Origin: Nitrospiria bacterium | Lineage (GTDB): Bacteria; Nitrospirota; Nitrospiria; DASWJH01 | Direction of reading: 5' to 3' | Assembly: GCA_036397255.1 (NCBI GenBank) | Contig: DASWJH010000026.1 | Coordinates: 1 to 64,000, forward strand | Length of the DNA stretch: 64,000 nucleotides | In this document: piece after piece, positions 2,760-49,963 of the stretch | Layout of the letters: each line of letters opens with the position of its first letter | Position numbering within the stretch: the first letter of the stretch is position 1 | Notes under the pieces: generated by a model | Told to the model about the DNA's origin: nothing | Database searches by the model: none | What the model saw: the letters and a program-made list of their open reading frames with translations, nothing else | Program-made: the position numbers and the translations under genes

Positions 2760-4283
2760 TTATGAAACCAGTTTTGAAATTAAATTCATGTCAATATGGT
2801 TTTTGACGAGTTGGGCTAAGCTTTCATAATCGGTATTCCTCCGGTGAGAAAAACTACCCTTTTCATAGGATTCAGGAATTGCTTTCTTTTTTCTTTTTTC
2901 GTTTAAAAACCAATGCCGGAAAGAATCATTTTCAAATAGCCCATGCAAATAAGTCCCCCAGATCAGTCCGTTTTTTCCGTAGGCCCCTTCTTTTTCCGTA
3001 ACTTCCCCCCCCCCGTGCTCAATTTTCTTAAAAAGGGGTTTGGCCCCTTCCTGAACCCTGGTTTTTCCAGAATGAATTTCGTAACCGGATAAAGCAAAAT
3101 CCTGTGGCCAAGGCCCGTCGGAACAGGGTTCTACTTTTACTTGAACGGTCACCTTGTCCTTTTCTAAGACTGTTTCAACCTCCAAAAGGCCCAACCCCAT
3201 TACCTGCTCTTTCCTATTCTCCACGAAATAGGGATCCCTGATGGATTGTCCCAACATTTGATATCCACCACAAATTCCACCAATTTCTCCTCCGGATTGC
3301 GCATAGTGTTTAATCGCTTTTGCAAAACCAGACTCCCAAAGAAAAATGAGGTCATCGATTGGATTTTTACTTCCGGGGATAAGGAGCAAATCCAATTCCG
3401 ATAAATCTTCATCGCCTTTCAAAAATTGAAGGGAAATTTGAGGCTCACGTCGAAGTGAGTCAAAATCAGTTGAATTAGAGATGTGGGGTAAATGAACCAC
3501 TCCGATCCGGATCCCATAAAAAGAAACCCCTTGAGGGTTGGTTATATTCCGTGGTTTATCCTCCAACCCCACACTATCTTCATCCGGCAGGAATAAGGCC
3601 TCATGATAGGGAATAACCCCCAAAACAGGCTTTTTACATCGGCGTTCTAAATCCGCTAAACCTTTTCGCAGGTGTTGAATTTCCCCACGAAATTTATTAA
3701 AAATAAGCCCTTTGACACGGTCCCGGTCCAACTGGGGTAGCAATTCTAACGTCCCAAACAGAGAAGCAAAAGCCCCTCCCCGATCAATATCGGTTATTAA
3801 CAGAACCGGAGCATCCGCCATTTGTGCAATCTTCATATTGGCTAAATCGGAATCCATTAAATTTATCTCTGCTGGACTTCCGGCCCCCTCAATCACAATC
3901 ATGTCATACTTTTCAGAAAGTTTTTTATAGGAATCTCTTATAATTTTAAAAATTTCATCATGGTACCCTTTGAATTCTGAAACAGCCATATGGCCGCGGA
4001 CCTTACCCCGAACGATCACTTGGATTCCTTTTCCAGAATCGGGTTTCAACAAAACGGGATTCATATGGACCGTTGGGATTAAATCACAGGCCCCTGCTTG
4101 AACGGATTGGGCATATCCAATTTCCTCACCCTTTTGGGTCACAAAGGAATTTAATGCCATGTTTTGTGATTTAAAAGGAGCAACCCTGATTCCCTCCTGA
4201 TGAAAAATTCGACACAGAGCGGTCACCAGCATACTTTTACCTACAAAAGAGGCAGTTCCTTGAACCATAATGGCTTTAGCCAT
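2760..4283 (-). CDS. cobQ: Cobyric acid synthase CobQ/CbiP
   Basis: This 507-residue glutamine-dependent amidotransferase amidates four side chains of adenosylcobyrinic acid a,c-diamide to give cobyric acid, late in B12 synthesis. The N-terminal half is a DTBS-like ATPase (MAKAIMVQGTASFVGKSMLV, P-loop-like GTASFVGKS; later NFKSQNMALNS-like FKSQNMALNSFV and EGAGSPAEINL). The C-terminal half is a class-I glutaminase triad domain: nucleophile region GGICGGYQMLG and catalytic His in YLHGLFEND. The ATG at 4281-4283 follows a GAGG ribosome-binding site. It is the last gene of the minus-strand B12 block, 240 bases after cobL. Confidence 0.94.
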   Translation of the reverse strand: MAKAIMVQGTASFVGKSMLVTALCRIFHQEGIRVAPFKSQNMALNSFVTQKGEEIGYAQSVQAGACDLIPTVHMNPVLLKPDSGKGIQVIVRGKVRGHMAVSEFKGYHDEIFKIIRDSYKKLSEKYDMIVIEGAGSPAEINLMDSDLANMKIAQMADAPVLLITDIDRGGAFASLFGTLELLPQLDRDRVKGLIFNKFRGEIQHLRKGLADLERRCKKPVLGVIPYHEALFLPDEDSVGLEDKPRNITNPQGVSFYGIRIGVVHLPHISNSTDFDSLRREPQISLQFLKGDEDLSELDLLLIPGSKNPIDDLIFLWESGFAKAIKHYAQSGGEIGGICGGYQMLGQSIRDPYFVENRKEQVMGLGLLEVETVLEKDKVTVQVKVEPCSDGPWPQDFALSGYEIHSGKTRVQEGAKPLFKKIEHGGGEVTEKEGAYGKNGLIWGTYLHGLFENDSFRHWFLNEKRKKKAIPESYEKGSFSHRRNTDYESLAQLVKNHIDMNLISKLVS

Positions 4284-12448: not shown

Positions 12449-12527
12449 TTGTTCCCTGGTTCTTCACCCCAAAGGTTAATCAGCCATCTCCTGCCAACGA
12501 GGATGGAAGATTAAATTGCCCAGGCCG

Positions 12528-12714
12528 GTCTTCTGACTTATGGATCAGTCTACTTCCCCTACCTTCCCGGCCGGAGGTTTTTAAAACCTTCGGGGCATTT
12601 CCCTTTTAGGAAAGAGCCTTTAACCAGTGGTTTTCAGGGGTTTCGTCCCCATATACAGCGGCGGGCCCGTGACGGATTTACACCATCTTCCCGAGCGCCT
12701 GGACTTCTAATGTG
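12528..12714 (-). ncRNA. Cobalamin (AdoCbl-type) riboswitch
   Basis: The minus strand carries the conserved core of the cobalamin riboswitch: GGGAAGATGGTGTAAATCC, then GGGCCCGCCGCTGTA, and the 3-prime B12-box AAGTCAGAAGACCGGCC (about 12529-12545). The predicted transcript start is about 12713, so the aptamer begins almost at the 5-prime end. Downstream elements are an intrinsic terminator and the btuFCD-tonB operon. The known role is to repress corrinoid uptake when adenosylcobalamin or a related corrinoid is plentiful. Confidence 0.95.
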
Positions 12715-12720
12715 AAACCT

Positions 12721-35682: not shown

Positions 35683-36525
35683 TTGAATATTTTTTTATTT
35701 AAATCTTTCCTAAAAAGAGGTAATAAAAAAACACACTATGGGCTATTAATCGGATTTCTTCTCATTTTAGGCTGCGAACCCATTTCGGAAGAAACCCAGA
35801 AATCACCCCCCCCTATTGGCCAAATGGTAATGATTCCAGCAGGGAAATTTATCATGGGAAGCGATAAAACGGATGAGACCCAGGAAGGAGTGGAATTCGG
35901 GTCCGCCAAACCTTGGTTTTTAGATGAACATCCCAAACGAACCGTTTTCCAACCTGCTTTCAAAATGGATATTTACGAAGTCACCAACAAAGAGTACCGG
36001 GGTTTCATTGATAAAACGGCCACTCCTCCACCCCCCACTTGGCCCGAAGGGAATTTCCCCCCGGAACAGGAACAGTGGCCGGTGACAGGAATCACATGGT
36101 TTGAAGCCGAACAATTCTGCAGATGGGCAAAAAAAAGGCTTCCCACCGAAGCGGAATGGGAAAAAGCCGCCCGTGGTACCGATGGCCGAGAGTTTCCTTG
36201 GGGGAACCAATTCGATGAGAAAAAAGGTAACATCGGGGGTACCAGTTTAAAGCCGGTGGGAAGCTACCCCGAAGGGGTTAGCCCATACGGTATTTATGAC
36301 ATGGCCGGTAACGTATCGGAATGGGTAAGCAATTGGTACAAACCCTACCCCGGGGCCACCTATTCCTCTAAAGCTTATGGAGAAAAGTTTAAAGTGGTTC
36401 GAAACAGCAGTTGGGGAGGCTCAGCAGGACATTATACAGTCTCTCACTTTTATAGAACCTCCTACCGATTCTTTCAATTACCCATCCGGCGTTTTCGTGA
36501 TATAGGGTTTCGATGCGCCATGTAA
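35683..36525 (+). CDS. SUMF1/formylglycine-generating-enzyme-like lipoprotein, probably non-catalytic
   Basis: This is a 280-residue protein from a TTG at 35683 (AAGG about 12 bases upstream). It has a hydrophobic leader with lipobox LLILGC, then a SUMF1-type domain: MVMIPAGKFIMGSDKTDETQ, DIYEVTNKEYRGFID, TGITWFEAEQFCRWAKKRLP, TEAEWEKAARGTDGREFPWG, YDMAGNVSEWV and IRRFRDIGFRCAM. The two active-site cysteines of true formylglycine-generating enzymes (in the RGGS...C...C segment) are absent: that region reads NSSWGGSAGHYTVSHFYRTS. It is therefore probably a binding or structural member of the fold. Likely co-expressed with the propeller upstream. Confidence 0.83.
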   Translation: MNIFLFKSFLKRGNKKTHYGLLIGFLLILGCEPISEETQKSPPPIGQMVMIPAGKFIMGSDKTDETQEGVEFGSAKPWFLDEHPKRTVFQPAFKMDIYEVTNKEYRGFIDKTATPPPPTWPEGNFPPEQEQWPVTGITWFEAEQFCRWAKKRLPTEAEWEKAARGTDGREFPWGNQFDEKKGNIGGTSLKPVGSYPEGVSPYGIYDMAGNVSEWVSNWYKPYPGATYSSKAYGEKFKVVRNSSWGGSAGHYTVSHFYRTSYRFFQLPIRRFRDIGFRCAM

Positions 36526-36551: not shown

Positions 36552-37154
36552 TTATCTTGGGGGGTGAGCCAGAGCGATCTGAATTTTTTCGACGGTTTGG
36601 CGAATTTGAGGTGACTCGGGTTCATTGGGGTGGGTTTCCAGATAATGCTTAAACGTTTCTAATGCCTTTTTCTGATCTTTAGTGCTATCCAGATAGATAA
36701 TTCCCAAATTTAAGAGTGCCGGCCCGTTATCCGGGGCAATTTTCAAGTTCTCTTCCAAAAGTTTCACAGCCTCAGGAATTCTTCCCTGCTCCAACCTGGC
36801 CAAGGCCATGTTATTTCTTGCGTCCAAATGTTTTGGTTCTAATTCCAATAAATGGTCATATAATTTTGTTGCCTCATCAAAACGGTTAATCATCATTTGG
36901 GCATTTCCTAAGGCCATGAGGGCATCCCGATCATCCGGGTATTGATCCAAACGGGCGCGCAGTGCTTGAATTTGGGCCATCGGGTTCGTTTGAGGATGGT
37001 TTTGAGGGATTTCATTGCCTATTTCAATTGGAGGGGCTGTAGGACTTGTTAGGCCATCATTGGAATCGTTTTTATGTTCAATGTTGCTGAGAAGCAAAAC
37101 CGCCACCCCGATGACCGAAACACCTAAGATTCCCGCAAAGACGTATGTTTTCAA
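36552..37154 (-). CDS. Membrane-anchored TPR protein
   Basis: This 200-residue protein has an N-terminal membrane anchor (VFAGILGVSVIGVAVLLLSN), a short proline/asparagine linker and about three tetratricopeptide repeats (LDQYPDDRDALMALGNAQMM; ATKLYDHLLELEPKHLDARN; ALARLEQGRIPEAVKLLEEN; NGPALLNLGIIYLDS). It resembles the TPR part of CcmI/CcmH cytochrome-c maturation proteins. The ATG overlaps the stop of the upstream propeller-DUF3105 gene by 4 bases, so it is the third gene of the cytochrome A operon. It may act as an assembly or docking protein for that module; that is inference. Confidence 0.78.
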   Translation of the reverse strand: MKTYVFAGILGVSVIGVAVLLLSNIEHKNDSNDGLTSPTAPPIEIGNEIPQNHPQTNPMAQIQALRARLDQYPDDRDALMALGNAQMMINRFDEATKLYDHLLELEPKHLDARNNMALARLEQGRIPEAVKLLEENLKIAPDNGPALLNLGIIYLDSTKDQKKALETFKHYLETHPNEPESPQIRQTVEKIQIALAHPPR

Positions 37155-39487
37155 GGCTGCTCCTTTGCCACCTCTTTTGCATGGTGATCGATTCCTTCAT
37201 AGGCCTCAATAAACTTTAAAATTCGATCCTCATCCAATTTATCCATTGTGTCAATCCGCTCCCATGCGGTTAAAGCGATTTTGTTATCCATTAAGGGGTA
37301 AGGGGCCAATATAACATGTTCAAACTCTTTCATTTTTCTTTCCAGTATTTGAACCATATCCGGGCAAGGATCAGGGCAATTATATTGGACCAATACTCCC
37401 CCATCCTCCAGGTTGTGCACTTGAAGTTCGAGGGGAACAGGGACGGGATGAATCCCCCAATCCGCAACATAGGGAAGATGATGACCAGAGGTTGGTGGAT
37501 TGCTGTTATAAGGTGTGTGGGGTTCTTGTGGATAGGACAGATGATCATTCCCCAGAGAGGGAACATAACGGCCCGGCTGTTCCTGGCCGATACTGGTTTT
37601 CACGGGAAGGACCAGTTTGTCTGAAGGTTTTGAACCGATTCCTCCAAGGCGGTTTAATTCAAATTGGTCTTTGGAAAAATCATTATTGAATTTTACCTTT
37701 TCAATTTGAACATGCTGGGTTAGCTTTCCATCAATGATACGCTCCAACCGTTTAGGAAACCTGTAACCCCCGTCGATTTTTTCATAATCATAAAACTTGG
37801 TCTCCACAAGGCCTCCAAAACCTCCTTCTTCCCCATGCCCTTTCCCCGAAAAAACAGGGAATTTTTCAACCAGGTTGGTAGGAAACCCGGTCTTTGCATC
37901 CACCCAGAGTTGAGAAACTCTTTCCCCCTCCACTTGGGTTCCTATTACAAAATAATGGTGGTCCCCTTCTTTCACCTCCATTACCTGATCCACTGCAAAA
38001 CCGGTCCGAAGATAAGGAGATCCGGGAACATCTCCCGCTAAGGTCCGGATGGCTTCATCAGAGGAAAGGTTGGGCATTGAAAACACCACGGAAATTAAAT
38101 CCTGTCGGGGAGTGACCCAAAATTTTCCATCGGGATCAATCGAAATGGTCGTTCCCTCTTTTGCCAAGCGAATCTCATCCTTTTCGTTTTCAATTCGGAG
38201 TCCATCCGGACTTTTAAGAAACACTTTCAATTCTTTTGTTTTTTGAACCCCTTTAGAAATTTTAGCATCATCTGTTTTTCCGTGTTTCTCTTCGGAACCG
38301 GGTTCTGTCCACGTCACTTTTTCGGTCCAGGAAATATTGTTAAAAGAATTGCTCGTTTTCCCCATCTTGGCCATAACTTCTTTCAAGGTTTTGCGATCAA
38401 ATTCTTTTTCTTTGCCAATCTGGTCTCGAACTTTTTTGGGAATTTCGATTATTCTCACATCCATTGGATGATCCCCAGTTGTCACAGATCGGTAAACGGT
38501 AAGGTTTTTGGGGTCTATTTCCAATAAACGTTTGTTGTTTCTATCCAGTACGTAAAGACGATCCCCAGAGGGTGAAAAATCTCCAGCCACTAAGCCCCCC
38601 TCAAGCGTCGTTCTTGCCTCTTCCGTAATCGAAGGCCAGGGACGTTTATTAAAGTCGATCTGGTAACTTATGATATGGCTGCGCTTTGCCCCCTCTCCTT
38701 TCCAGCAAAGAACACCCATTCGGGTCTCGTCCTTTGAAAGGATTACTGTCCGGGGGAAAGGGCAAGAAGAAACCTTTCGACCATCACCCAAGCGGTTGAG
38801 GAGGGTTAGCTGACTGGTCTCAAGATCTGCGGTAAAGAGAAAGGGGTTTTTAATGGAGGCTTTAATACTAATGGGACTCCTGCCCGTTTGGTAGGAAAGC
38901 TGAACCGCTTTGCTGGAATCCTCTTCACCAATGGGAAAAGACACCATATATCCATATCTTTCCCTTGGCCCTTTGGTCATAGGGTCATACTGAACCATGT
39001 AGAGTTTATTCCCTTCAGGGTCTGGAGTCATATCATAAACCTGGTTAACATCAATCATCCGCTGTTCAATTGTTTTGAAGGATTTTCCATCGATTCTATG
39101 AAAGGCGGAACTAGGCCAATTCATCGTTAAAAACTGCTCCCCATTTGGAGAAAAAACCCCCGGCCCTCTAAAAGGAAGTGAATATATTATTTCATGACTT
39201 TTTAAGTCAATGACCGTCGTTGTTTCGGAATACCAATGTTGGGCCCAAAGTTGTTTACCATCGGGGGAAGAAATCAAGCGCCAGGGGGCAACACCTGAAT
39301 AAATTTTTTTGATCGTTTTTCCCTCATTAAGATCAATTACCTGGATATTATTGTTGGCACCGTTTGCCACATATGCAACAGGAACTTTCTTAGTAAAAGA
39401 AGGGAAGGTGAAGCCCATTAACCCTGATAAGCCAAACAAAATAAATAGAAAAACGATTCCGATCAAGCGACTAAAAAGTTTCATCAT
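37151..39487 (-). CDS. Secreted propeller / LolA-RseB-like / DUF3105 protein (module A)
   Basis: The protein is about 778 residues from the ATG at 39485-39487. A signal peptide or anchor (GIVFLFILFGLSGLMGFTF) is followed by a YncE-like beta-propeller (VAYVANGANNNIQVIDLNEG; GVAPWRLISSPDGKQLWAQH; through residue ~340). A LolA/RseB-like lipid-binding-fold domain comes next (VFLKSPDGLRIENEKDEIRL; VSQLWVDAKTGFPTNLVEKF). The C-terminus is DUF3105 (YNSNPPTSGHHLPYVADWG; VHNLEDGGVLVQYNCPDPCP). It lies 94 bases after the pentahaem cytochrome A gene, with a hairpin between, and overlaps the TPR gene. It is a clear paralogue of the gene at 43137-45422. A role as periplasmic partner of the cytochrome is inferred from repeated linkage. 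Confidence 0.85.
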   Translation of the reverse strand: MMKLFSRLIGIVFLFILFGLSGLMGFTFPSFTKKVPVAYVANGANNNIQVIDLNEGKTIKKIYSGVAPWRLISSPDGKQLWAQHWYSETTTVIDLKSHEIIYSLPFRGPGVFSPNGEQFLTMNWPSSAFHRIDGKSFKTIEQRMIDVNQVYDMTPDPEGNKLYMVQYDPMTKGPRERYGYMVSFPIGEEDSSKAVQLSYQTGRSPISIKASIKNPFLFTADLETSQLTLLNRLGDGRKVSSCPFPRTVILSKDETRMGVLCWKGEGAKRSHIISYQIDFNKRPWPSITEEARTTLEGGLVAGDFSPSGDRLYVLDRNNKRLLEIDPKNLTVYRSVTTGDHPMDVRIIEIPKKVRDQIGKEKEFDRKTLKEVMAKMGKTSNSFNNISWTEKVTWTEPGSEEKHGKTDDAKISKGVQKTKELKVFLKSPDGLRIENEKDEIRLAKEGTTISIDPDGKFWVTPRQDLISVVFSMPNLSSDEAIRTLAGDVPGSPYLRTGFAVDQVMEVKEGDHHYFVIGTQVEGERVSQLWVDAKTGFPTNLVEKFPVFSGKGHGEEGGFGGLVETKFYDYEKIDGGYRFPKRLERIIDGKLTQHVQIEKVKFNNDFSKDQFELNRLGGIGSKPSDKLVLPVKTSIGQEQPGRYVPSLGNDHLSYPQEPHTPYNSNPPTSGHHLPYVADWGIHPVPVPLELQVHNLEDGGVLVQYNCPDPCPDMVQILERKMKEFEHVILAPYPLMDNKIALTAWERIDTMDKLDEDRILKFIEAYEGIDHHAKEVAKEQP

Positions 39488-39519
39488 TGAAAACACTCCC
39501 TTTGATGAAAAAGATAGAA

Positions 39520-39553
39520 AAGGCCTGTGCGCAATTATAAGCACACAGGCCTT
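39520..39553 (-). promoter_or_regulatory. Conserved intercistronic hairpin, module A
   Basis: In the minus-strand RNA AAGGCCUGUGUGC pairs with GCGCACAGGCCUU (13 pairs, one U-G) around the loop UUAUAAUU. It lies between the cytochrome stop and the propeller start. An equivalent hairpin with the same GGCCUGUG core sits in the same position of module B. A moderately U-rich tail (TTCTATCTTTTTC) follows here, so it may act as a partial terminator or an RNA-end protector. Confidence 0.75.
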
Positions 39554-39580
39554 CGAATATCAATTTGAGCAGTTTTTATA

Positions 39581-42500
39581 CTAGTTGCCAGTCTTGAAAG
39601 TGCTAGTAAAATCCTGGGCCATAGGAGTTCCGCCCAAGTCTTGAACGGCTGTTGTAATTCTCACACAGTAATTTTGTTTTGAGCCCAAGGTTGGATTGGG
39701 ATCAAAAGTCCACACATCATTGGCTCCACTGACAACACCAGCCACGCTAGGTCCTAGTGTGTCACATGGATTACCTCCACTACCTGCACCCTCATTTAAA
39801 AGGAAGCTGTTTGTATCCACCCCGGTAACAGGTTCTGAGAATGTAGCCACAACATTCGTATTTCGGTTAACATTTTTCGCTCCATCGGCAGGATCTATAT
39901 TGGTAACAGTTGGAGCACCACCTGGAATTGTGGTAGTCGTTGTCGTTGTGCCCCCAGTTGTCGTTGTTGTAGAAATGGTGGTTGTAGTTGTGGTTGTAGT
40001 AGTTGTAGTTGTCGTTGGGCCACTCACAGGATACCCTAGAGGAGTTGAGGTATCTCCCGTTCCTTGATCAGCACTTCGGGCTGTTCTGAAGGTCCAGGAA
40101 ATTTCACTGGCAATGCAGTTATTGTTAAAATCACAGACCACATTTCCCCCGGCGATTCGGGCCGTATAGTTTTCCCTACCAGAAAGGACCACATCATGGG
40201 GGAAAATGGCCCATACACCGTCATTAATCTGATCCACATAAGCCGGGACGGTAACACCTCCTGAATCTTCAAGTGTGAAGGTTGTGTTATCAATTCCAGT
40301 AACAGGCTCTGTAAAGAAAGCCTTCGGAACCACATCGATATGAGTATCAACCGCCCCGTTGGGAGGATAAAAACCGGAAATATCGGTGCGAATTGCAGGC
40401 GGGGTGGTGTCGGTTTGACCTGTAATGTTGATCACCACATTTTTGACCTCCATAGGGAGCGCAGGTGCACCTTCTACAACCGCAGGTTCAACGGTGGGTG
40501 TTCGCCCGTCACAGGCCCCATTTAGCACACAGGGCTCAAGGAGAAAATCGGTATCCGTATCTGCTAGATTTCCAAGGAATTTCTCAGCCACAACCGCTTC
40601 GAAGGCTTGGAAGTAAACCGCCGCGGTAACTGCAACGGGTCCTACCGTTCCAGGAGGAATCACCACGGAATACCGGTTTAGTGTTGCCGTCGCATCCGTA
40701 TTGGGCAATGGGCGCAGACGGGAATCAACCAGGAAGGCATCGTCAAACAGGTCACCATCTCCATCCAGGTCATTATATTGGGGAAGACCAAGCGGATTGT
40801 TTCGGTCAATGACCGTGCCACCCGAATCAATCGGCATATTATTTGCGTTCACCACCATGTTTAACGGAGTGGCGTAAGGTAAATCTAACGTGGGACAGCC
40901 ATTACCGAGAGAGGCAACGGCTTTAAATTGCCGTGAATATGGATCAGCTGAACCTGCCGGAACCGTCCAGTTACACCCGGGGTAATTTGGATCGATCATA
41001 TCTGCCGCATTCAGATATCCCACCCCTAGGGAGGTTCGGCTCCAGAAGGAATCTTGAATTTGAAGCTCATTTCCGCTTGCCAAATCATACGCACGAACCG
41101 AAACCCAGGCGTTTCGTCCCTCAGGGAAACCTGTTGGGAAATTGTGACCGCTTCCGCTATTGGTAACACTTAGATTAAGTGCGGGGTTCGTACCGGCCCC
41201 TGCACTCGCCGGGCCAGAAAGGCTGATGTCTAGGACGTTACGCATCCGGTCCCAAGCAAACCGCGGGTGTTGGGTATCAGCTCCTTTGTTTGTCACATTT
41301 TCCCAATAGGCATTATGGTAAATACTGGTATCATCCGCCGATGAAAAGCTATTAACTGATAGAGTTGGATAAGGTTCAATTGCTCCACTAGTTTTGATAT
41401 CCGCACCAACCATCTGAGTGATATAAGAATTCCCCCCTACGAAATGATGAGTGAAGAAAACCGGTCGAGTGGGGCCAGAACTGCACACCGTACCATCCGT
41501 AGTATCGATCGGGGCAACGGGGTTCCCACTTACATATAATGTTTGTGCTGTTCCCGGCTGGCCGTAATCCTGCTGCATGTGACAGGTTTCGCAATCACGC
41601 TTAAAAGCGGGATCAAAATTGCTATTCCCCGCCCTGTCTGCATAACGGCTATGGGACCATTCGGTGTAGGTCCGCTCAATCGGGAAACCGCCTACCCAAT
41701 TGCCGAGGGCATTTTGGATAGTCATGGGATTTGTTACATCATGACAGGCAGCACAGAATTCGGACCGTTCAAATTTTACATGGTAATATCCATCATGTTT
41801 TCCTGAAAAAGAACCCTGTTGGTAATTTATATTGATATTGAATACATCGCTCACGTAAGGATCTATTTGAGCTGTATAATCATCCCAGGTTAAAGGACCA
41901 AACCTCTCAGGATTTCCAATGCCATGTGGAGATAATCGAAAAGCCCCCGCCCCGATCCCATACCCTAAATTTCCGCTCGTAGGATTCGGTTCATTTAACG
42001 TATCAGGGGGGGTCACAAGCGCGTCTCGATCCCCTGTTCCTAAAGCAGGAACATATTCCGTTCCGGATTTAACATAGTTATGATAGGGCGTGTATCTTGT
42101 TTCCACATTGGTATGACAAACCTCGCAGAAAATTCCCTGTTGCCCGCTTAGGGTGTTACGGAATTGTGCGCTGACCTCGGCAAAGGCGGTACCCGTCCCG
42201 TCGTCCGATGTGGGATCAAAGGTTGGGCTTACAGGCCCATGTTCCAAACCAGAGGGAGTATCGGGCCCAACCCCCGCCAAATCCACCTGATCGGTATAAT
42301 TGGTTGGCATATGGCATCGTGAGCAGAAATCATCCATCAAAGAACCGGAACCAGATGTTTGATGGATCGTGGTTCCTATATCAAAGGTTGATGAACAATT
42401 CGCTCCGTCCGCAAAGGGATTGATGAGGGCCCTGGTGGTAGCATCCGGAGGATTGGGTGTATCACAGTTTCCATCAGTCGCGGTCAAACGGGCCACCAAA

Positions 42501-42799
42501 AGGAAGGCGCCTCTCCAACCCGTATCCCGCCACGCATTGGACATCATGGATCCATTCCAATCATTCCAAATCCGTGTATGGCACCCATCGCACGTACCAG
42601 GGCTGTTGGTACCCGTCCAGTCCCCTTCAAAAGGAGGAGGAAAAAACGCCGCCTCGTCCACATTATAAGGAGCGGCCTCGGGAATCCGATTCGGAAGCTC
42701 CCCGTGCCGCGCAAATGAATTGGAGACAAAAGCCAAGAGGAAAAAAGTAATGGCTAAAAAGCCTAGAAAACCTATTATCGATGTTTTCTTTAAACCCAT
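39581..42799 (-). CDS. Secreted pentahaem c-type cytochrome with Ig-like domains and poly-Thr linker (module A)
   Basis: The protein is about 1072 residues from the ATG at 42797-42799 (AGGGGG upstream). It has a signal peptide or anchor (SIIGFLGFLAITFFLLAFVS). Five CxxCH haem-attachment motifs fall in the first ~410 residues: CDGCH (~70), CSRCH (~159), CEVCH (~225), CAACH (~349) and CETCH (~403). A middle domain (~500-800) follows. Then comes a bacterial Ig-like (Big_5) domain (PPNGAVDTHIDVVPKAFFTE), a long threonine linker (~30 Thr in runs) and a second Big_5 domain ending TSTFKTGN. No C-terminal membrane anchor or sorting signal is seen. Predicted role: extracytoplasmic electron transfer. 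It is a paralogue of the gene at 45519-49010. Confidence 0.88.
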   Translation of the reverse strand: MGLKKTSIIGFLGFLAITFFLLAFVSNSFARHGELPNRIPEAAPYNVDEAAFFPPPFEGDWTGTNSPGTCDGCHTRIWNDWNGSMMSNAWRDTGWRGAFLLVARLTATDGNCDTPNPPDATTRALINPFADGANCSSTFDIGTTIHQTSGSGSLMDDFCSRCHMPTNYTDQVDLAGVGPDTPSGLEHGPVSPTFDPTSDDGTGTAFAEVSAQFRNTLSGQQGIFCEVCHTNVETRYTPYHNYVKSGTEYVPALGTGDRDALVTPPDTLNEPNPTSGNLGYGIGAGAFRLSPHGIGNPERFGPLTWDDYTAQIDPYVSDVFNININYQQGSFSGKHDGYYHVKFERSEFCAACHDVTNPMTIQNALGNWVGGFPIERTYTEWSHSRYADRAGNSNFDPAFKRDCETCHMQQDYGQPGTAQTLYVSGNPVAPIDTTDGTVCSSGPTRPVFFTHHFVGGNSYITQMVGADIKTSGAIEPYPTLSVNSFSSADDTSIYHNAYWENVTNKGADTQHPRFAWDRMRNVLDISLSGPASAGAGTNPALNLSVTNSGSGHNFPTGFPEGRNAWVSVRAYDLASGNELQIQDSFWSRTSLGVGYLNAADMIDPNYPGCNWTVPAGSADPYSRQFKAVASLGNGCPTLDLPYATPLNMVVNANNMPIDSGGTVIDRNNPLGLPQYNDLDGDGDLFDDAFLVDSRLRPLPNTDATATLNRYSVVIPPGTVGPVAVTAAVYFQAFEAVVAEKFLGNLADTDTDFLLEPCVLNGACDGRTPTVEPAVVEGAPALPMEVKNVVINITGQTDTTPPAIRTDISGFYPPNGAVDTHIDVVPKAFFTEPVTGIDNTTFTLEDSGGVTVPAYVDQINDGVWAIFPHDVVLSGRENYTARIAGGNVVCDFNNNCIASEISWTFRTARSADQGTGDTSTPLGYPVSGPTTTTTTTTTTTTTISTTTTTGGTTTTTTTIPGGAPTVTNIDPADGAKNVNRNTNVVATFSEPVTGVDTNSFLLNEGAGSGGNPCDTLGPSVAGVVSGANDVWTFDPNPTLGSKQNYCVRITTAVQDLGGTPMAQDFTSTFKTGN
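39925..40020. repeat. GTT/GTG trinucleotide tract encoding the poly-threonine linker (module A)
   Basis: On the plus strand this stretch is almost entirely GTT, GTG and GTA triplets (ACA/AAC-like Thr codons on the coding strand). It encodes runs of Thr broken by a few Ile, Ser and Gly. Codon choice is mixed, so it is a selected low-complexity linker and not a pure microsatellite. Length could still vary by slippage in multiples of three. Confidence 0.6.
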
Positions 42800-42969
42800 T
42801 TTCAATCCCCCTAAATTTTTTTTGCTCTTTAAATAGCCCATAAAAACAGCTAAGCATTGTTATAATAAAACCTCTACCTCATTTCTGTTGGTCACTCCGA
42901 CTTAACCCTTATTGGGATTAGAATCCCAATTAAAAAGTTTCTTACTCTTTTGACCTATTTTGACATAAT

Positions 42970-43032
42970 TGTCAATGGGGCTTTGGTACTAGTTTAGTAT
43001 TAAATTTGGGGTTTTTAATACCAAAATAAACC
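42970..43032 (-). promoter_or_regulatory. Conserved operator-like block upstream of cytochrome A
   Basis: On the plus strand, TGTCAATGGG (42970-42979) is followed 14 bases after its G by GGTACTAGTTTAGTA and, further on, by AATACCAAAATAAACC, an imperfect inverted partner. The same arrangement, with the same spacing, lies upstream of cytochrome B (49165-49228). On the minus strand TTGACA here is followed by ATTATGTCAAAA, so TTGACA...TGTCAA is itself a palindrome. The block is about 170-230 bases before the start codon. Confidence 0.6.
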
Positions 43033-43136
43033 TAAAAATGAGGATATTAAGGTCTATCTAATGAAATTATTAACTCATATTTAAAATTTTCATGAGCAAG
43101 GGAATAGTCCCACAAGGGGGTAAAATCTTTCATTTA

Positions 43137-45422
43137 TTATTGATTTTTATTTTCAGGTTTTGAGGGATGATGGTCAATATTTATATAGGCATCAATAAAT
43201 TCAATTATTTTATTTTCATCATAATCATTAAATATTTGAATTTTTTCCCAGGCGGTTAAAGCCAGCTTTGAATCCATTAAAGGATAGGGAGCAACCACAA
43301 GCCTATCATATTTTCTAGCAAGTTCTCCCATTTGTTTTTTCCACGGATCACAACCATCAGGACAATTATATTGAATCAAAACACCCCCATCCTCAAGATT
43401 ATGAACCTGTTCCTCAAGTGGGATTGGGATTTCATGAACGCCCCACTCTGCGATATAACGGGTATGAGGCCCTGAGGTTGGGGGATTACTGTTATAAGGC
43501 TCATGGGGCACTATTGGATGATCAATATGCTCATTCCCCAAACCCGGAACAGTCCGCCCAGGTTCCTTCTGTAAAGAAACGGTCTTAGCCAGCATTTTTT
43601 TCTCAGGTTTAATCCCTAAACCTCCCAATTGGCTTAAATCAAAATGAAAATCTTTCAGCCCGGGATTAATTCTTATATCTTCAAGATAAACCTTTCCAAT
43701 AACTCTGCCATCCATCAACCTCATCATCCTCACAGGAAGAAAATACTTTTCCTGAACCTTTTCATATAGTAGCTTGGTCTCAGCAATCCCTTTTGGGATC
43801 TGACTTCCTTCATGAGGGGAGGGATTGGCCATAATGGGAAATTTTTCTATCAGACTAACCGGAATCATTTTTTCGGCATCAATCCAAATCTGAGAAACCT
43901 GTTCACCGGTTTTTTTGGCCCCTATTACATGATATTTGTGATCTCCTTCCTTTACATTCCCAAGAATATCTACAGCAATACCATTTTTTAAAAATGGGCT
44001 TCCGGAAACATCCCCGGCCATATGGCGAATAACTTCTTCAACGGAAAGAGAATTAATTGCATAGAGTAAGTAACTCAAATCTTGCCGGGGAAGTGAATAA
44101 AACTGACCCCCTGGAGGAATCGCTATCCCCCATCCCTTTTCAGCAAGCCTCGCCCCCCCATTTTGAAATTCCTGGCGAAAATTATCCGGTACCCTAAAAA
44201 AGGTGCGGATCTTTTTCGGGTCTATTTCTTTTTCCTTTTCCTTTTTTTCAATTTCAAGGGGATTGGGCTTCTCTTCAACCGGCTTAAACTTTTCCACAAA
44301 ACTCAACTCTTGAAAGGAGGCACCATTTTTTTTTATTCCGCGGATAATACGTTCCAGTCTGATTTGGTTTTCCCTTTTTTTCCCCCATCGATCACGTTCC
44401 CTCTCCTCAACTTCTGTCATAACAAAATCATAAGGAACATCACCTACCGGAATCGCTCGAATTTCCTCCAATGTCTCTAAATTAAAAACCACCAGATTTT
44501 CACCCAATTGATCTAAAGCAAAGAGCTCTTTTCCTGAGGGGGCCAGTTTTGCTGTCACTAATCCCCCCCGGAATTTCCTGGCTAAAGCCGGTTTAAATTC
44601 TGGCCAAGGCCTTTTTCCCCAGTCAACCTTCATAGTTAATATTTCACTAACCCTTTCTCCCTTTTTCCAACAAATAGCAATTAAATTTTCCTCCCCAGCA
44701 AAAATGACGTCTCTTGGACCTGGTACAAGTGTTATTTTGGCTCTGGCGTTGTGTTCATTGATCAGAGTAATTTCGCTTCCATCCACGTTGGCAACCACCA
44801 GAAACTCTCCCGTAGGGTCCATTTGCATCCGAATGGAACTGTCCCCCGTGGGAATACTGGTTCCCGCGGGATTTTCCTTTCCCATCGGATAGGAAAGAAC
44901 ATAGCTATAAACCCGCTTGTCACCCTTTGAAATCGGATCATATTGCCCCACATAGAGATTTTTTTCACCCCAGGCCAGTGCCAACTCATAAGGTAATTTG
45001 ACCTCCGTTTGAATCCGGTCTTTTGCCTTAAAACTTTTCACATAATAGGCCTGCAAGATACTTCCAGGCCATGAGTAGCTCCAAAAAAGGTTTCCCTTTT
45101 CATTAAAAATTCCTGGGCCCCTGGCTGGGATTTGCCCAGAAACAATTAAACTGGGAAGGTCTACGGCAACGGTGTTCTCTGAATACCAATGCTGAACCCA
45201 TAATTCCCTCTGGTCCGGGGAAAAAAGTAATCTCCAGGGAGAGGCACCTGTATATAACTTGGTAAGGGTTTTTCCCGAATTTAAATCAATGATCTGAACA
45301 TTATTATTTCCCGCATTGGCAACAAATCCTACGGGAACCTTTCCCGCCTCCGATAACACAGGTATAGCCGAAAAGAATAAACTATAAACCAATAGAACGA
45401 AACCTTTTCTGAATTTTTTCAT
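43137..45422 (-). CDS. Secreted propeller / LolA-RseB-like / DUF3105 protein (module B)
   Basis: The protein is about 761 residues from the ATG at 45420-45422. A signal peptide (GFVLLVYSLFFSAIPVLSEA) is followed by a YncE-like propeller (VGFVANAGNNNVQIIDLNSG; GASPWRLLFSPDQRELWVQH) and a charged linker (KPNPLEIEKKEKEKEIDPKK). A LolA/RseB-like domain follows (FFRVPDNFRQEFQNGGARLA; VSQIWIDAEKMIPVSLIEKF), then DUF3105 (YNSNPPTSGPHTRYIAEWG; VHNLEDGGVLIQYNCPDGCD). It is collinear with the module A protein over its whole length. It follows the cytochrome B gene by 96 bases with a conserved hairpin between. There is no TPR gene after it. Confidence 0.85.
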   Translation of the reverse strand: MKKFRKGFVLLVYSLFFSAIPVLSEAGKVPVGFVANAGNNNVQIIDLNSGKTLTKLYTGASPWRLLFSPDQRELWVQHWYSENTVAVDLPSLIVSGQIPARGPGIFNEKGNLFWSYSWPGSILQAYYVKSFKAKDRIQTEVKLPYELALAWGEKNLYVGQYDPISKGDKRVYSYVLSYPMGKENPAGTSIPTGDSSIRMQMDPTGEFLVVANVDGSEITLINEHNARAKITLVPGPRDVIFAGEENLIAICWKKGERVSEILTMKVDWGKRPWPEFKPALARKFRGGLVTAKLAPSGKELFALDQLGENLVVFNLETLEEIRAIPVGDVPYDFVMTEVEERERDRWGKKRENQIRLERIIRGIKKNGASFQELSFVEKFKPVEEKPNPLEIEKKEKEKEIDPKKIRTFFRVPDNFRQEFQNGGARLAEKGWGIAIPPGGQFYSLPRQDLSYLLYAINSLSVEEVIRHMAGDVSGSPFLKNGIAVDILGNVKEGDHKYHVIGAKKTGEQVSQIWIDAEKMIPVSLIEKFPIMANPSPHEGSQIPKGIAETKLLYEKVQEKYFLPVRMMRLMDGRVIGKVYLEDIRINPGLKDFHFDLSQLGGLGIKPEKKMLAKTVSLQKEPGRTVPGLGNEHIDHPIVPHEPYNSNPPTSGPHTRYIAEWGVHEIPIPLEEQVHNLEDGGVLIQYNCPDGCDPWKKQMGELARKYDRLVVAPYPLMDSKLALTAWEKIQIFNDYDENKIIEFIDAYINIDHHPSKPENKNQ

Positions 45423-45463
45423 TGTATGACCATACCTTTTCAGGACACCCATCCTAAAGAAAT

Positions 45464-45494
45464 GGCCTGTACGCTCACCTTAAGCGCACAGGCC
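45464..45494 (-). promoter_or_regulatory. Conserved intercistronic hairpin, module B
   Basis: In the minus-strand RNA GGCCUGUGCGCU pairs with AGCGUACAGGCC (12 pairs, one G-U) around UAAGGUG. It occupies the same place as the module A hairpin, between cytochrome and propeller genes. No U-run follows, so it is not a classical terminator here. Confidence 0.75.
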
Positions 45495-45518
45495 GAATAA
45501 TGCAAGCAGGAAAGAACT

Positions 45519-48500
45519 CTAACTGTTCCCGGTCTTAAACGTGCTGTTGAAGTTCTGGGCCAAGCCGGTCGCAGTGGTCACCGTGACGCAGTACCACGTC
45601 TTGGTGGCCAGGTTGTTTGTCGGATCCAGCGTCCAAGCCGTTCCCCCTCCGGTAACGGTTCCTGGGGCTTGAGCGCCCAACGTGGCGCACCGGTCCTGGT
45701 TCGGACCGAGGGCTACATGCAGCAGGAAACTGCTTTCATCCACCACGCCGCTCGGGGTCTGGTTGAAGGTGATGTCCACATTGGTCGCCGTGAGAATGCC
45801 GGTGGACCCATCAGGAGGTTTCACGCTGGTTACCTGAAGGCCGCCAAGCGTCGTCGTTGTGGTAGTGGCTCCAGTGGTGGTGGTAGCTCCGGTGGTTGTT
45901 GTTGTCGTGGTTCCTAACGTAGTAGTGGTTGGAACCGGCTCATTGCTTCCCACCTTAAACCCGAAGGTATACTCCCCTCCCGCTGCAGGTCCTGCTGCCA
46001 ACGGGTTCCCTGCAAAGTCCGTAAGGGCCGACCCATTCCGGGATGGGGCAATATGCATGACATACACCCCCCGATCCAACAACGCCATCTCCTCACTGGT
46101 GAACGGGAACAACCCCCAGGTCGTATCATCGATCTGATCCAGAAGGGTGGTAATGGCCGATCCACTGTTATCCGTCAGATAGAAGGTATTGGGATCCACT
46201 CCCTGGACAGGCTCTGTGAAACTCACCTTCACAATCCGGAAAGCATCCACATGAAGCTCACCATTTCCCTCTACATCATAATTTCCCGTAGGTCCTCCAT
46301 AGGGAGAAGGCGACCAATGACGGTTCGCGGGAATCGGAGCGGTCAGATTGGTATCGGCGGTAGAATTATTAATCACCACCTGCGGGGCGACAGAATCTGC
46401 CGTCTCATTCACCTGAATCACTGCGTTCACCACTTCCATCGGGACCGCCGGCGCACCCTCGACCACCACCGGATCGAACTTCATCGCCTCCCGTAGCTCC
46501 GCGTCCCCAAAGGCACCCGGTTTCCCGACACGGTCACAGGGCGCTTTCAGAACGCAGGGCTCCAGTGTCGGTGAACCGGTCGGGAACCCCTCGTCGGCCT
46601 CCACATCATCGGTATTGGCCAGGTTCCCCAAAAACTTCTTCGCCACCACCGCCTCGAAGGACTGATAGTACACCACCGCCGTCACCGCAATCGGACCCAC
46701 CACATCGGACGGCACCACCACCGAATACTGGCTTGCGTTGATGGTCGCACCCGCATGGGGAAGAGGCCTCAACCGTGTATCCTCCAAAAAGGAGTCATCA
46801 AACAAATCCCCGTCCCCGTCCAGGTCATTATACTGAGGCAATCCCGTGGGATTGTTCCGGTCGATCACCGCCCCAGTCGAATCCACCGGCATACCCTGAG
46901 CGTTCACCACAAGATTGACGGGCGTCGCGTAGGGAAGATCGAGCGTCGGACAGTTCTGGTCCAGCGTGGCCCACGCCTTGATCAATATGGAATACGGATC
47001 AGGTGAGCCTTCCGGAATGATAAAATTACACCCCGGGAACAGCGGATCAGCCTGCGCTGATGCCGTCATATAGCCCACACCAAAAGAGCGCTGATTACCA
47101 GCGGCTGAGTTCTGAATCTGCAACTCAACATCATCGGAGGTGTCTGCGGTGTTTTTGGTATCGAACGCCGACACCCGCACCCAGGCCACTCGCCCTTCCG
47201 GAAACCCGGTCGGGAAATTATGCCCGGAGCCCGCGTTCGTGACGCTCAGGCTCAAAGGTGCCAAGGTCTCCGTCGCAGGCCTGGCCACCGATCCAGGGGC
47301 CGAAAGGTTCATCGTCAATACATTCCTCAGACGGTCCCACGCAAACCGCTCATGCTGGGTCGCAGGGGGCCCTTTTCGAGAGGGTGCCGTGTCGAACCGT
47401 GCATAGTTGAAGCGGCTGGCCGGTTCTTTGGAGGAAAAACTGGTATGCAAAAGCTCCGGATAAGGCTGAACATCCCCGCTGCTCTGAGCGTCCGCACCGA
47501 TCATCTTCGTGATATAGGCATTGCCCCCCACGAAATGGTGCGTCCAATGGGGCGTCCTCGTAATCCGGTCACAACTCGGTCCGCTCAGCGGAGGCACGGA
47601 CACACCGCTTGCATCATATAACGTCAGCGCCGTCCCAGGTTGCCCGAAGGTCTGGTTCATGTGACAGGTCTGGCAATCCCGTTTAAACGCAGGATCGAAA
47701 AACGCGTTCCCCGGACGGTCCGCATACCGGCTGTTTTGCCATTCCGTATAGGTCCGCTCAATGGGAAATCCTCCGACCCAAAAACCATGTTGGTTCTTGA
47801 TCGTGGCAGGGTTGGTCACATCATGGCAGGCCGCGCAAAACTCGGATCGTTCAAACTTCACCTGATAAAACGTATCATGCTTTCCGGGAGGATTGGCCTG
47901 AATATAGTTAATCGGCGTGCCAAATACCCCGGTTAAATACGGATCCTCCGTGGCATTAAAATCGTTCCAGCTCAACGGCCCGAACCGTTCCGGTTCATGC
48001 AACGCATGGGGAGAAAGTCGAAACGCTCCCGCCCCTGCCGCATATCCCAAATTCCCTGACGCGGCATCCGGCACGGTCAGCATATCCTCCTGTTCCGGCG
48101 TCAGACCGGAATTCCAGCGGGGATTCTGTGAGGGTACCGGATAATACTCCGCCCCGCTTTTGTTGTAATTGTGATAGGGGGTATACCGGGTCTCCACATT
48201 GGTATGGCACACTTCACACACAATCCCCGTTTGCCCGCTGTTGCTGTTCACCATTCGCCCTTCTGCCGTTCGGCGGAAACCAAAGGATTCTGGCGTTAAC
48301 TGTCCGGTATAAGGATCTGTAGTGGTGACCTCCGCCGTTGAATTAATGGATGTGGGATCAAACGTGGGGCTGATCCGCCCATGCTCTTGTGTCGTCGCTC
48401 CGGCACCGTGGGGACTTTGATCATCCGTATAGACATCAATGGTCGCATCCACATAATCGGTCGGCATGTGACACCGGCTGCAGAAATCATCCATTAATGA

Positions 48501-49010
48501 GCCCGAACCGCTGGTGGTAACCATTCCCGTTCCATAATCAAATGTGGAGGTCCCATCCGCATTGGCAAAAGGATTGATCTTATGGGCTGCATCGCTGCAA
48601 TCGTAGGGAGTCGATCCATCGGGTGGGGGGGGAATATCGGCACAGCCATCCGTTGAGGTCAACCGCGCCACCAAAAGAAAAGCGCCTCTCCAGCCTGGAT
48701 CGCGCCAGGCGTTAGACATCATGGCACCGTTCCACTGATCAAATATTCCTGTATGACAGCCGGTGCAGGCTCCCACATCATCGATCCCATTCCAAAGGCT
48801 CTCAAAAGGAGGTCCGGGATAGGCACCGGGAGTGCCCAAATTAGGGTGGTCCGTTTCCGAAACCACATACGGAGCCGGCTCGGGAATCCGGTTGGGGATG
48901 AAATCCTCCTCCCCATGGCGGGCACTTGAATTGGAGACAAAAGCCAGAAGGAAAAAGGTGGAAACTAAAAAGGCAAGAAAACCTAAAATAGTTTTTTCCT
49001 TTAAATCCAT
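45519..49010 (-). CDS. Secreted pentahaem c-type cytochrome with Ig-like domains and Thr-rich linker (module B)
   Basis: This 1163-residue paralogue of cytochrome A has the same leader (FLAFLVSTFFLLAFVSNSSA). Its five CxxCH motifs in the same order are CTGCH (~82), CSRCH, CEVCH, CAACH and CQTCH. Shared blocks include GSGSLMDDFCSRCHMPT, NVETRYTPYHNY, FERSEFCAACHDVTNP and WVGGFPIERTYTEW. The C-terminal part has a Big_5-like domain (VKVSFTEPVQGVDPNTFYLT), a Thr-rich linker shorter than in A and a final Big_5 domain. Local G+C is visibly higher than in module A, so the copies have diverged in composition. It is the first gene downstream of the LuxR-type regulator. Confidence 0.88.
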   Translation of the reverse strand: MDLKEKTILGFLAFLVSTFFLLAFVSNSSARHGEEDFIPNRIPEPAPYVVSETDHPNLGTPGAYPGPPFESLWNGIDDVGACTGCHTGIFDQWNGAMMSNAWRDPGWRGAFLLVARLTSTDGCADIPPPPDGSTPYDCSDAAHKINPFANADGTSTFDYGTGMVTTSGSGSLMDDFCSRCHMPTDYVDATIDVYTDDQSPHGAGATTQEHGRISPTFDPTSINSTAEVTTTDPYTGQLTPESFGFRRTAEGRMVNSNSGQTGIVCEVCHTNVETRYTPYHNYNKSGAEYYPVPSQNPRWNSGLTPEQEDMLTVPDAASGNLGYAAGAGAFRLSPHALHEPERFGPLSWNDFNATEDPYLTGVFGTPINYIQANPPGKHDTFYQVKFERSEFCAACHDVTNPATIKNQHGFWVGGFPIERTYTEWQNSRYADRPGNAFFDPAFKRDCQTCHMNQTFGQPGTALTLYDASGVSVPPLSGPSCDRITRTPHWTHHFVGGNAYITKMIGADAQSSGDVQPYPELLHTSFSSKEPASRFNYARFDTAPSRKGPPATQHERFAWDRLRNVLTMNLSAPGSVARPATETLAPLSLSVTNAGSGHNFPTGFPEGRVAWVRVSAFDTKNTADTSDDVELQIQNSAAGNQRSFGVGYMTASAQADPLFPGCNFIIPEGSPDPYSILIKAWATLDQNCPTLDLPYATPVNLVVNAQGMPVDSTGAVIDRNNPTGLPQYNDLDGDGDLFDDSFLEDTRLRPLPHAGATINASQYSVVVPSDVVGPIAVTAVVYYQSFEAVVAKKFLGNLANTDDVEADEGFPTGSPTLEPCVLKAPCDRVGKPGAFGDAELREAMKFDPVVVEGAPAVPMEVVNAVIQVNETADSVAPQVVINNSTADTNLTAPIPANRHWSPSPYGGPTGNYDVEGNGELHVDAFRIVKVSFTEPVQGVDPNTFYLTDNSGSAITTLLDQIDDTTWGLFPFTSEEMALLDRGVYVMHIAPSRNGSALTDFAGNPLAAGPAAGGEYTFGFKVGSNEPVPTTTTLGTTTTTTTGATTTTGATTTTTTLGGLQVTSVKPPDGSTGILTATNVDITFNQTPSGVVDESSFLLHVALGPNQDRCATLGAQAPGTVTGGGTAWTLDPTNNLATKTWYCVTVTTATGLAQNFNSTFKTGNS

Positions 49011-49164
49011 TTCAATACCCCCTATTTTTATTTCTTTAAAAACTATTAGCGTTAAAAATTAAAGAAAATGCCCTTTGCTCGTTCTCTTTTTAAATTTAAT
49101 TTACAATTTTAGAAACAGAAATCAAAACAATTATTCTCGTTCTTTTGATCCTTTCTGACCCAAA

Positions 49165-49228
49165 TGTCAATGGGACTCTGGTATTATATTGGTACTAAAT
49201 TTTGTGAAAATCATACCAAACTAATACC
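49165..49228 (-). promoter_or_regulatory. Conserved operator-like block upstream of cytochrome B
   Basis: On the plus strand TGTCAATGGG (49165-49174) precedes GGTATTATATTGGTA (49180-49194). That 15-mer is matched, 13 of 15, by an inverted copy at 49214-49228 (TACCAAACTAATACC). The spacing and sequence mirror the block before cytochrome A. A TATAAT lies inside the first arm on the minus strand. The block is about 155-220 bases before the start codon and likely holds the promoter and a dimeric regulator site. Confidence 0.65.
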
Positions 49229-49291
49229 TCCAATGAGAATCTTTGTGATGTTTGCTGGGTTTAACCGAATGTAGGGGAGAAATAAAAGAGC

Positions 49292-49939
49292 TTAAAGCCC
49301 AGAGGAGGTCAATGAGTAATCCATCAACTGGGTTCTTTTTGTCACATTGAGCTTATTAAAAATATTATGGACATGGCATTTTACAGTTTTTTCGCTTAGG
49401 TAGAGCTTCTCTGCAATTTCTTTATTCCGCAACCCTTGCCTGACCATTTCATGGACCCTGATTTCTTGAGCAGTCAAACCGTTACCATTATAATATTTCC
49501 GATCTTGCATTTTTCCATTTTTAGGGTGGGTTCCGTTTACTTCGATCTTTTTTTGAAACCAAATCCCTCCTTTAAACACCTCCCGAATGGCATCGGCTAA
49601 TTCTTCATCCCGAATGGTTTTTGAAAGAAAAGCCCTGATTCCGGCATGCATTGCCCGTAACATCAAATCCCCCTGCATCACATCACTTAAAATAAAATAT
49701 TTTATATTATTTCCTTGGCTTAAAAGGGGGAAAAACTGTTGAATCGAATAGCGCTGGTTTGGGTCTAGGCCTGCAATAAAGATGTCTGTTTTAATAAAAT
49801 TCTTTGAATTTTTAAACTGTTCTGGATGGGTTAACTCAGCAATAAGCTCAAAATCATTTTGTATCCTAATTAACTCTTTCAGTCGTTCCCGGAGTTTTTT
49901 GTCCCTGTCACATACGATCAGATGGATCCGGTGTTCCAT
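49292..49939 (-). CDS. LuxR/NarL-family regulator with a degenerate receiver domain
   Basis: The protein is about 215 residues from the ATG at 49937-49939 (AAGGAG 7-9 bases upstream). A receiver-like N-terminus (IHLIVCDRDKKLRERLKELI) keeps the acidic pair. The segment that should read DVVLLD is DIFIAGLDP, with Gly at the expected phosphoacceptor position. The conserved Lys region is retained (AFLSKTIRDEEL). The C-terminal LuxR helix-turn-helix is complete (LTAQEIRVHEMVRQGLRNKE; EKLYLSEKTVKCHVHNIFNK). No kinase gene is adjacent. It sits immediately upstream of cytochrome module B and is the best candidate regulator of both modules; that link is inference. Confidence 0.85.
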   Translation of the reverse strand: MEHRIHLIVCDRDKKLRERLKELIRIQNDFELIAELTHPEQFKNSKNFIKTDIFIAGLDPNQRYSIQQFFPLLSQGNNIKYFILSDVMQGDLMLRAMHAGIRAFLSKTIRDEELADAIREVFKGGIWFQKKIEVNGTHPKNGKMQDRKYYNGNGLTAQEIRVHEMVRQGLRNKEIAEKLYLSEKTVKCHVHNIFNKLNVTKRTQLMDYSLTSSGL

Positions 49940-49963
49940 TTCTATAACTCCTTGATAATTCAA

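Follow-up and report, generated by a model that had tools for sequence, protein, structure and literature searches.

Pentahaem cytochromes and a Nitrospiria locus that encodes them

The Ig-domain-bearing pentahaem cytochromes (PHCs) ExtKL and Gsu2801 of Geobacter and sPHC and lPHC of cable bacteria have been grouped into a single family, which shows structural similarity to the cytochrome c552 of Thermochromatium tepidum and is related to the nanowire protein AvECN (PMC11976967). Here we describe a locus centered on two such cytochromes, CytA and CytB, in a 64,000-nucleotide stretch of DNA from a Nitrospiria bacterium (contig DASWJH010000026.1; hereinafter the window), where they are accompanied by genes for two propeller–DUF3105 proteins (PropA and PropB), a TPR protein, an FGE-domain lipoprotein and a Reg_prop β-propeller protein (Table 1). 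On balance, and with moderate confidence, we interpret it as a cassette for a secreted PHC-type redox cytochrome and a dedicated, less abundant partner that would serve in its handling or maturation.

With the described family the window cytochromes share the combination of five haems with Ig-like domains and the occurrence of large variants, a pentacoordinate haem having been proposed for the family; in contrast, the neighbors of ExtKL are the porin ExtI and the cytochromes ExtM and ExtN in place of the propeller–DUF3105, TPR, FGE and Reg_prop genes seen here (PMC11976967). The low-potential c552 of T. tepidum (PDB 5ze8), like the pentahaem relatives found in Nitrospirota, has five haems and a WxxSxH region, and both display HSMGGG and PHxMPTG motifs ahead of the Ig-like part, which the alignment of the relatives links to the window proteins. 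At 435 residues, however, it is far shorter than CytA and CytB (1086–1163 residues), lacks their Thr-rich linker and additional Big_5 domain, and has a His where the cassette proteins have a Met. Hence, whereas the preliminary description of this DNA, made from the letters alone, knew of no described system of this composition, the cytochrome is of a known kind, namely the PHC group to which T. tepidum c552 is related (PMC11976967), and it is the set of cassette helpers that is undescribed.

A conserved gene group in two genomes

The locus had been presented as a tandemly duplicated module of a cytochrome and its partner. Indeed, the collinear pair occurs twice in tandem, as CytB–PropB and CytA–PropA, and BLASTP gives 51% identity between the two cytochromes and 41% between PropA and PropB. 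The minus-strand genes are transcribed in the order LuxR-type regulator, CytB, PropB, CytA, PropA and TPR, and the plus-strand Reg_prop and FGE genes converge on the last of these. A scan of public genome contigs with a single sequence recovered one relative, in Nitrospirae bacterium RIFCSPHIGHO2_01_FULL_66_17 (locus L006), with the order Cyt–Cyt–Prop–TPR and a convergent arm of FGE (two copies) and Reg_prop genes. Identity between the two loci amounts to 55.5–66% for the cytochromes, 42–47% for Prop, 36% for the TPR protein, 68% for FGE and 53.7% for Reg_prop. The window TPR protein, as first described, has a membrane segment, and its L006 homologue is a lipoprotein encoded at the same position.

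Since L006 doubles the cytochrome alone, the doubled Cyt–Prop pair is ruled out as the conserved unit, and the paired duplication is local to the window. The L006 pair is 80.5% alike, each member resembling the other more than it does CytA or CytB, so that the doubling there was separate or later. Going by the gene content of L006, the conserved unit instead consists of cytochrome–Prop–TPR along with FGE–Reg_prop, and thus takes in two genes that lay outside the extent originally assigned. The regulator upstream of CytB (49292–49963), which had looked dedicated to the module, is of the LuxR/NarL type with a receiver-domain score short of the cut-off; no counterpart was seen in the L006 locus, and it is doubtful whether the gene belongs to the cassette. 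The recurrence of the gene order in another family at 36–68% protein identity argues for more than chance, and comparison of the two loci lends good support to the cassette as a conserved gene group. One might still imagine an accidental tandem duplication of unrelated neighbors devoid of joint function, as hinted by its carriage in two genomes only; the retention of order, co-orientation and convergent arm at that level of divergence, and the co-occurrence described below, make this highly improbable.

When 270 genomes of the class were searched with a profile built from the cassette's four cytochromes, full matches came from just two: the genome of the window and G300, where the gene positions on the contig agree with L006. 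The Prop profile, likewise run over 270 genomes of the class, recovered the full-length three-part protein from the same two genomes, and 35 further ones yielded the DUF3105 part only, in short proteins whose genes often adjoin lnt and prfB. Within the class, the co-occurrence of Prop and the cassette cytochrome is exclusive both ways, in two genomes. The coupling surmised in the preliminary description is accordingly borne out, as a pair that is rare altogether yet always found together among the searchable genomes, and the joint envelope or extracellular redox role suggested for it fits. At an E-value of 1e-20 a CytB search of 296 genomes drawn from the phylum hit no other genome, and no plasmid-borne relatives of CytB were found.

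Table 1. Features of the cassette and its flanks in the window
Feature	Coordinates	Strand	Remarks
LuxR/NarL-type regulator, degenerate receiver domain	49292..49963	-	domain match; cassette membership doubtful
CytB, exported pentahaem cytochrome, 1163 aa	45519..49010	-	WNGAMM motif, Thr-rich linker, C-terminal Big_5
Hairpin, strong, 25 nt past CytB stop	45464..45494	-	GGCCTGTGCGC...GCGTACAGGCC, z -4.2
PropB, exported, 771 aa	43137..45452	-	propeller, middle region and DUF3105 (NCPDGC)
CytA, exported pentahaem cytochrome, 1086 aa	39581..42841	-	WNGSMM motif, Thr-rich linker, C-terminal Big_5
Hairpin, strong, terminator-like, 27 nt past CytA stop	39519..39554	-	GGCCTGTGTGC...GCGCACAGGCC, z -7.2
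PropA, exported, 797 aa	37151..39544	-	YVTN propeller, middle region and C-terminal DUF3105, NCPDPCPD (CxxxC)
TPR protein, 200 aa, N-terminal membrane segment	36552..37154	-	4 bp overlap with PropA end
FGE-sulfatase (SUMF1-like) domain lipoprotein	35683..36525	+	Pfam PF03781, 173 bits; lipobox LILGC; convergent arm, second gene
Reg_prop beta-propeller protein, exported, 372 aa	34525..35643	+	Pfam Reg_prop, 70 bits; convergent arm, first gene

The cassette cytochromes are members of the PHC superfamily

Five CxxCH motifs in identical order, as had been noted for CytA and CytB, are present in each of the four cassette cytochromes (the window pair and the two L006 copies). In CytA and CytB, Big_5 domains reach the Pfam cut-offs (E-values 2e-20 and 6e-7); no Pfam family scored above cut-off for their haem part. 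Profile comparison with hhalign matched the four proteins to shorter pentahaem proteins of the class (99.3%, E 1e-20), which in turn match 5ze8 with E-values of 2e-8 and 6.5e-9 and are widespread, being matched in 259 out of 396 genomes from the phylum. The cassette proteins and these relatives align across all five haem motifs, H378, H491 and GH597xxPxG, and also in the Ig-like part, where a GHxxPTG-containing region follows the haem domain. Placement of CytA and CytB in the PHC superfamily is well supported by these alignments.

The first haem motif is followed in the relatives by WxxS[I/M/Y]H, with the His in all 24 distinct relatives checked, and 5ze8 likewise has a presumed distal His after its first motif. 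The cassette cytochromes (4/4) instead display WNG[SA]MM, where a Met, aligned with Met98 of CytB, replaces the presumed distal His. This change suggests that one haem is probably His/Met-ligated, in which case its potential should rise. Apart from the His of the CxxCH motifs, a seven-sequence alignment contains three invariant His (378, 491 and 597), and at least one haem would therefore lack a family-conserved distal residue.

The kinship of the cytochromes also raises the prospect that they form an extracellular filament, or nanowire, exported or capped by the products of the other genes, as PHC proteins and the archaeal nanowire AvECN share a haem arrangement (PMC11976967). The Thr-rich linker and the Ig domain of the window copies fit a surface protein, and the tandem arrangement of cytochrome genes along with the hairpins described below suggests abundant production; but neither the linker nor the C-terminal Ig domain is present in the L006 copies. 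5ze8, the PHC relative of known structure, is soluble, and we regard a filament as decidedly unlikely.

Independently of these features, CytB is set apart by its G+C content at third codon positions, 0.62 against a mean of 0.44 (standard deviation 0.05) in the other genes of the window, CytA being normal at 0.43. The rise comes mostly from G-ending codons, and translational selection is unsupported as its cause, for it is these and not the C-ending codons that rise most. A recent acquisition of CytB, or its conversion, from a GC-rich relative is possible.

The propeller–DUF3105 partner

The Prop proteins had been read as a fusion of propeller, LolA-like and DUF3105 domains, and the first and last of these are confirmed. 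DUF3105 is detected with E-values of 4e-23 and 2e-21 (82 and 77 bits against a Pfam gathering score of 25), and the propeller matches YVTN repeats in NCBIfam and the fold of 1l0q; with the whole PropB model, only propellers appear among the 50 structure-library matches listed. The LolA-like assignment of the middle region is not confirmed: the region has no Pfam match up to an E-value of 10 and nothing relevant in NCBIfam, and its model, with pLDDT (predicted local distance difference test) mostly 30–67, shows a strand pattern that is only compatible with a LolA-like domain. The export signals of all four large proteins, read by eye as was the FGE lipobox, agree with the secretion foreseen in the preliminary description.

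When modelled alone (pLDDT 92), DUF3105 places C79-x3-C83 just past a strand, where a helix begins and where thioredoxins have their active site, and most of its top PDB matches are thioredoxins (best E-value 0.07, target template-modelling score at most 0.58). In this model, DUF3105 resembles SCO and thioredoxin proteins in bearing a CxxxC or CxxC at a strand end and helix start, but differs in the lack of a significant sequence match, the fold match being weak. The NCPDPCPD of PropA presumably recalls the SCO motif. The short exported DUF3105 (PF11303) proteins of Nitrospirota share with Prop the domain, its HNLE[DH]GG core and, in most cases, the Cys pair; in contrast to Prop they span about 170–260 residues and have no propeller fusion. 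No paper among the 5.39 million searched names the domain.

Two rival readings bear on this protein. In one, Prop is itself a catalytic redox enzyme, with a NosZ-, NirS- or NirN-like propeller and a CuA-like CxxxC domain, for which the cytochrome serves as electron donor or acceptor. NirS, NirN, NirF and NosZ are indeed among the fold matches of the propeller, profiles of L-NosZ and hydrazine synthase β give weak scores, and a CxxxC lies within DUF3105. However, the propeller fold is generic, and its single His invariant across three homologues (H103), in place of seven, implies that Prop has no seven-His CuZ site; together with an L-NosZ score of 18.8 bits where the cut-off is 700, this leads us to reject a NosZ-like identity and to consider an enzymatic role in general quite improbable. 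In the other, Prop is a structural or sensory partner that docks, or senses a substrate together with Reg_prop, and performs no thiol or metal chemistry. Reg_prop domains are typical of the periplasmic parts of sensors, the cassette holds two propeller proteins, and Cys-less members of the DUF3105 family exist; but each of the three full-length Prop proteins keeps both Cys, as do most members of the class, and such a role seems to us rather unlikely.

Hairpins behind the cytochrome genes

In both genomes a strong stem lies within about 30 nucleotides downstream of every one of the four cytochrome genes. Its z-score is -7.2 for CytA, -4.2 for CytB, and -3.1 and -4.0 for the L006 copies, against -0.5 in the PropB–CytA gap taken as control. 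The element GGCCTGTG is common to both window stems, and the L006 stems differ in sequence. Across the region as a whole, terminator-like sites are no more frequent than expected (18 against 19.1), and the claim accordingly rests on stem strength and position. These suggest that the hairpins act in partial termination or mRNA protection, which would leave the cytochrome in excess of Prop. The GTG start of PropA (39544) falls within the hairpin downstream of CytA; the ATG at 39487 is likelier to be the true start. As a separate observation, GGCCTGTG occurs six times in the window against 1.2 expected, a count reached in none of 100 shuffles; the sites are at 4085, 28373, 39522, 39544, 40510 and 45487, three of the six being within the two cytochrome hairpins.

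FGE genes at other c-type cytochrome loci, and the Reg_prop family

With regard to the active-site cysteines of formylglycine-generating enzymes, the FGE protein of the cassette has Cys at positions 31 (in the lipobox), 146 and 278 only. The window genome has 14 FGE-domain matches, eight of which, by our own raw count, are beside or fused with c-type cytochromes: one in the window, three on contig C70, two on C84 and one each on C14 and C6. The last two are near genes for a bd-like oxidase and mono- or dihaem proteins. On C70 (77–12482, locus L165) three FGE-domain genes stand in a row with those for an 11-haem cytochrome, a PHC–TPR fusion, a 774-residue propeller-like protein and an FG-GAP-like protein, and C84 (6926–8977, L180) encodes two dihaem–FGE fusions, each with two CxxCH near the N-terminus. 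The Reg_prop protein is one of a family of paralogues that 30 of the 58 relatives match one to seven times each, with no match among the listed genomes of families f2 and f3.

Some further observations can be set beside these. In another genome (G298, locus L098, 9828–18931) a multihaem cytochrome gene, three FGE-domain genes and two genes for TolB-like propellers line up with a short DUF3105 gene, and in family f7 Reg_prop genes are near short DUF3105 genes. Elsewhere in the window there is a cobalamin riboswitch (12506–12717, minus strand, 90 bits), and a phage-family search matched no phage families.

Functional implications

We therefore return to the reading of the cassette as one for a secreted cytochrome with a dedicated partner. 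Its main product would be the large Ig-domain-bearing pentahaem cytochrome, carrying electrons within the periplasm or on the outside of the cell, and the exported propeller–DUF3105 protein, made in smaller amount, would be its dedicated partner. As a reasoned guess, the propeller may dock on the cytochrome, with the thioredoxin-like CxxxC domain working on thiols or metal during cytochrome assembly or handling. More specifically, though less probably, DUF3105 might be a thioredoxin-fold thiol or metal domain by which Prop matures or loads this one His/Met pentahaem cytochrome outside the general Ccm machinery. The TPR protein, the FGE-domain lipoprotein and the Reg_prop propeller could be parts of one envelope apparatus, as supported by the C70 row, which joins an 11-haem cytochrome, FGE genes, a propeller and a PHC–TPR fusion, and by the existence of dihaem–FGE fusions.

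Several points weigh against this interpretation. The cassette is found in two genomes only, and its conservation amounts to one comparison; a profile with the window cytochromes matches 5ze8 directly at a marginal E-value of 0.003; no porin gene is present in the window cassette; the thioredoxin matches of DUF3105 are weak, none having an E-value below 0.001, and the Cys pair is missing from some DUF3105 proteins. Moreover, the hairpins may be ordinary terminators, each followed by a separate promoter.

Through its exclusive coupling to a cytochrome, DUF3105 gains a concrete functional context. From the replacement of His by Met in a PHC cytochrome it can be predicted that one haem has a measurably higher potential. 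In uncultured Nitrospirota, multihaem cytochromes are repeatedly linked with FGE-domain lipoproteins, propellers and TPR proteins, a pattern that points to an apparatus for electron transfer in the envelope that has not been described. If Prop does function in maturation, it would represent a cytochrome-specific assembly system beyond the general Ccm machinery.

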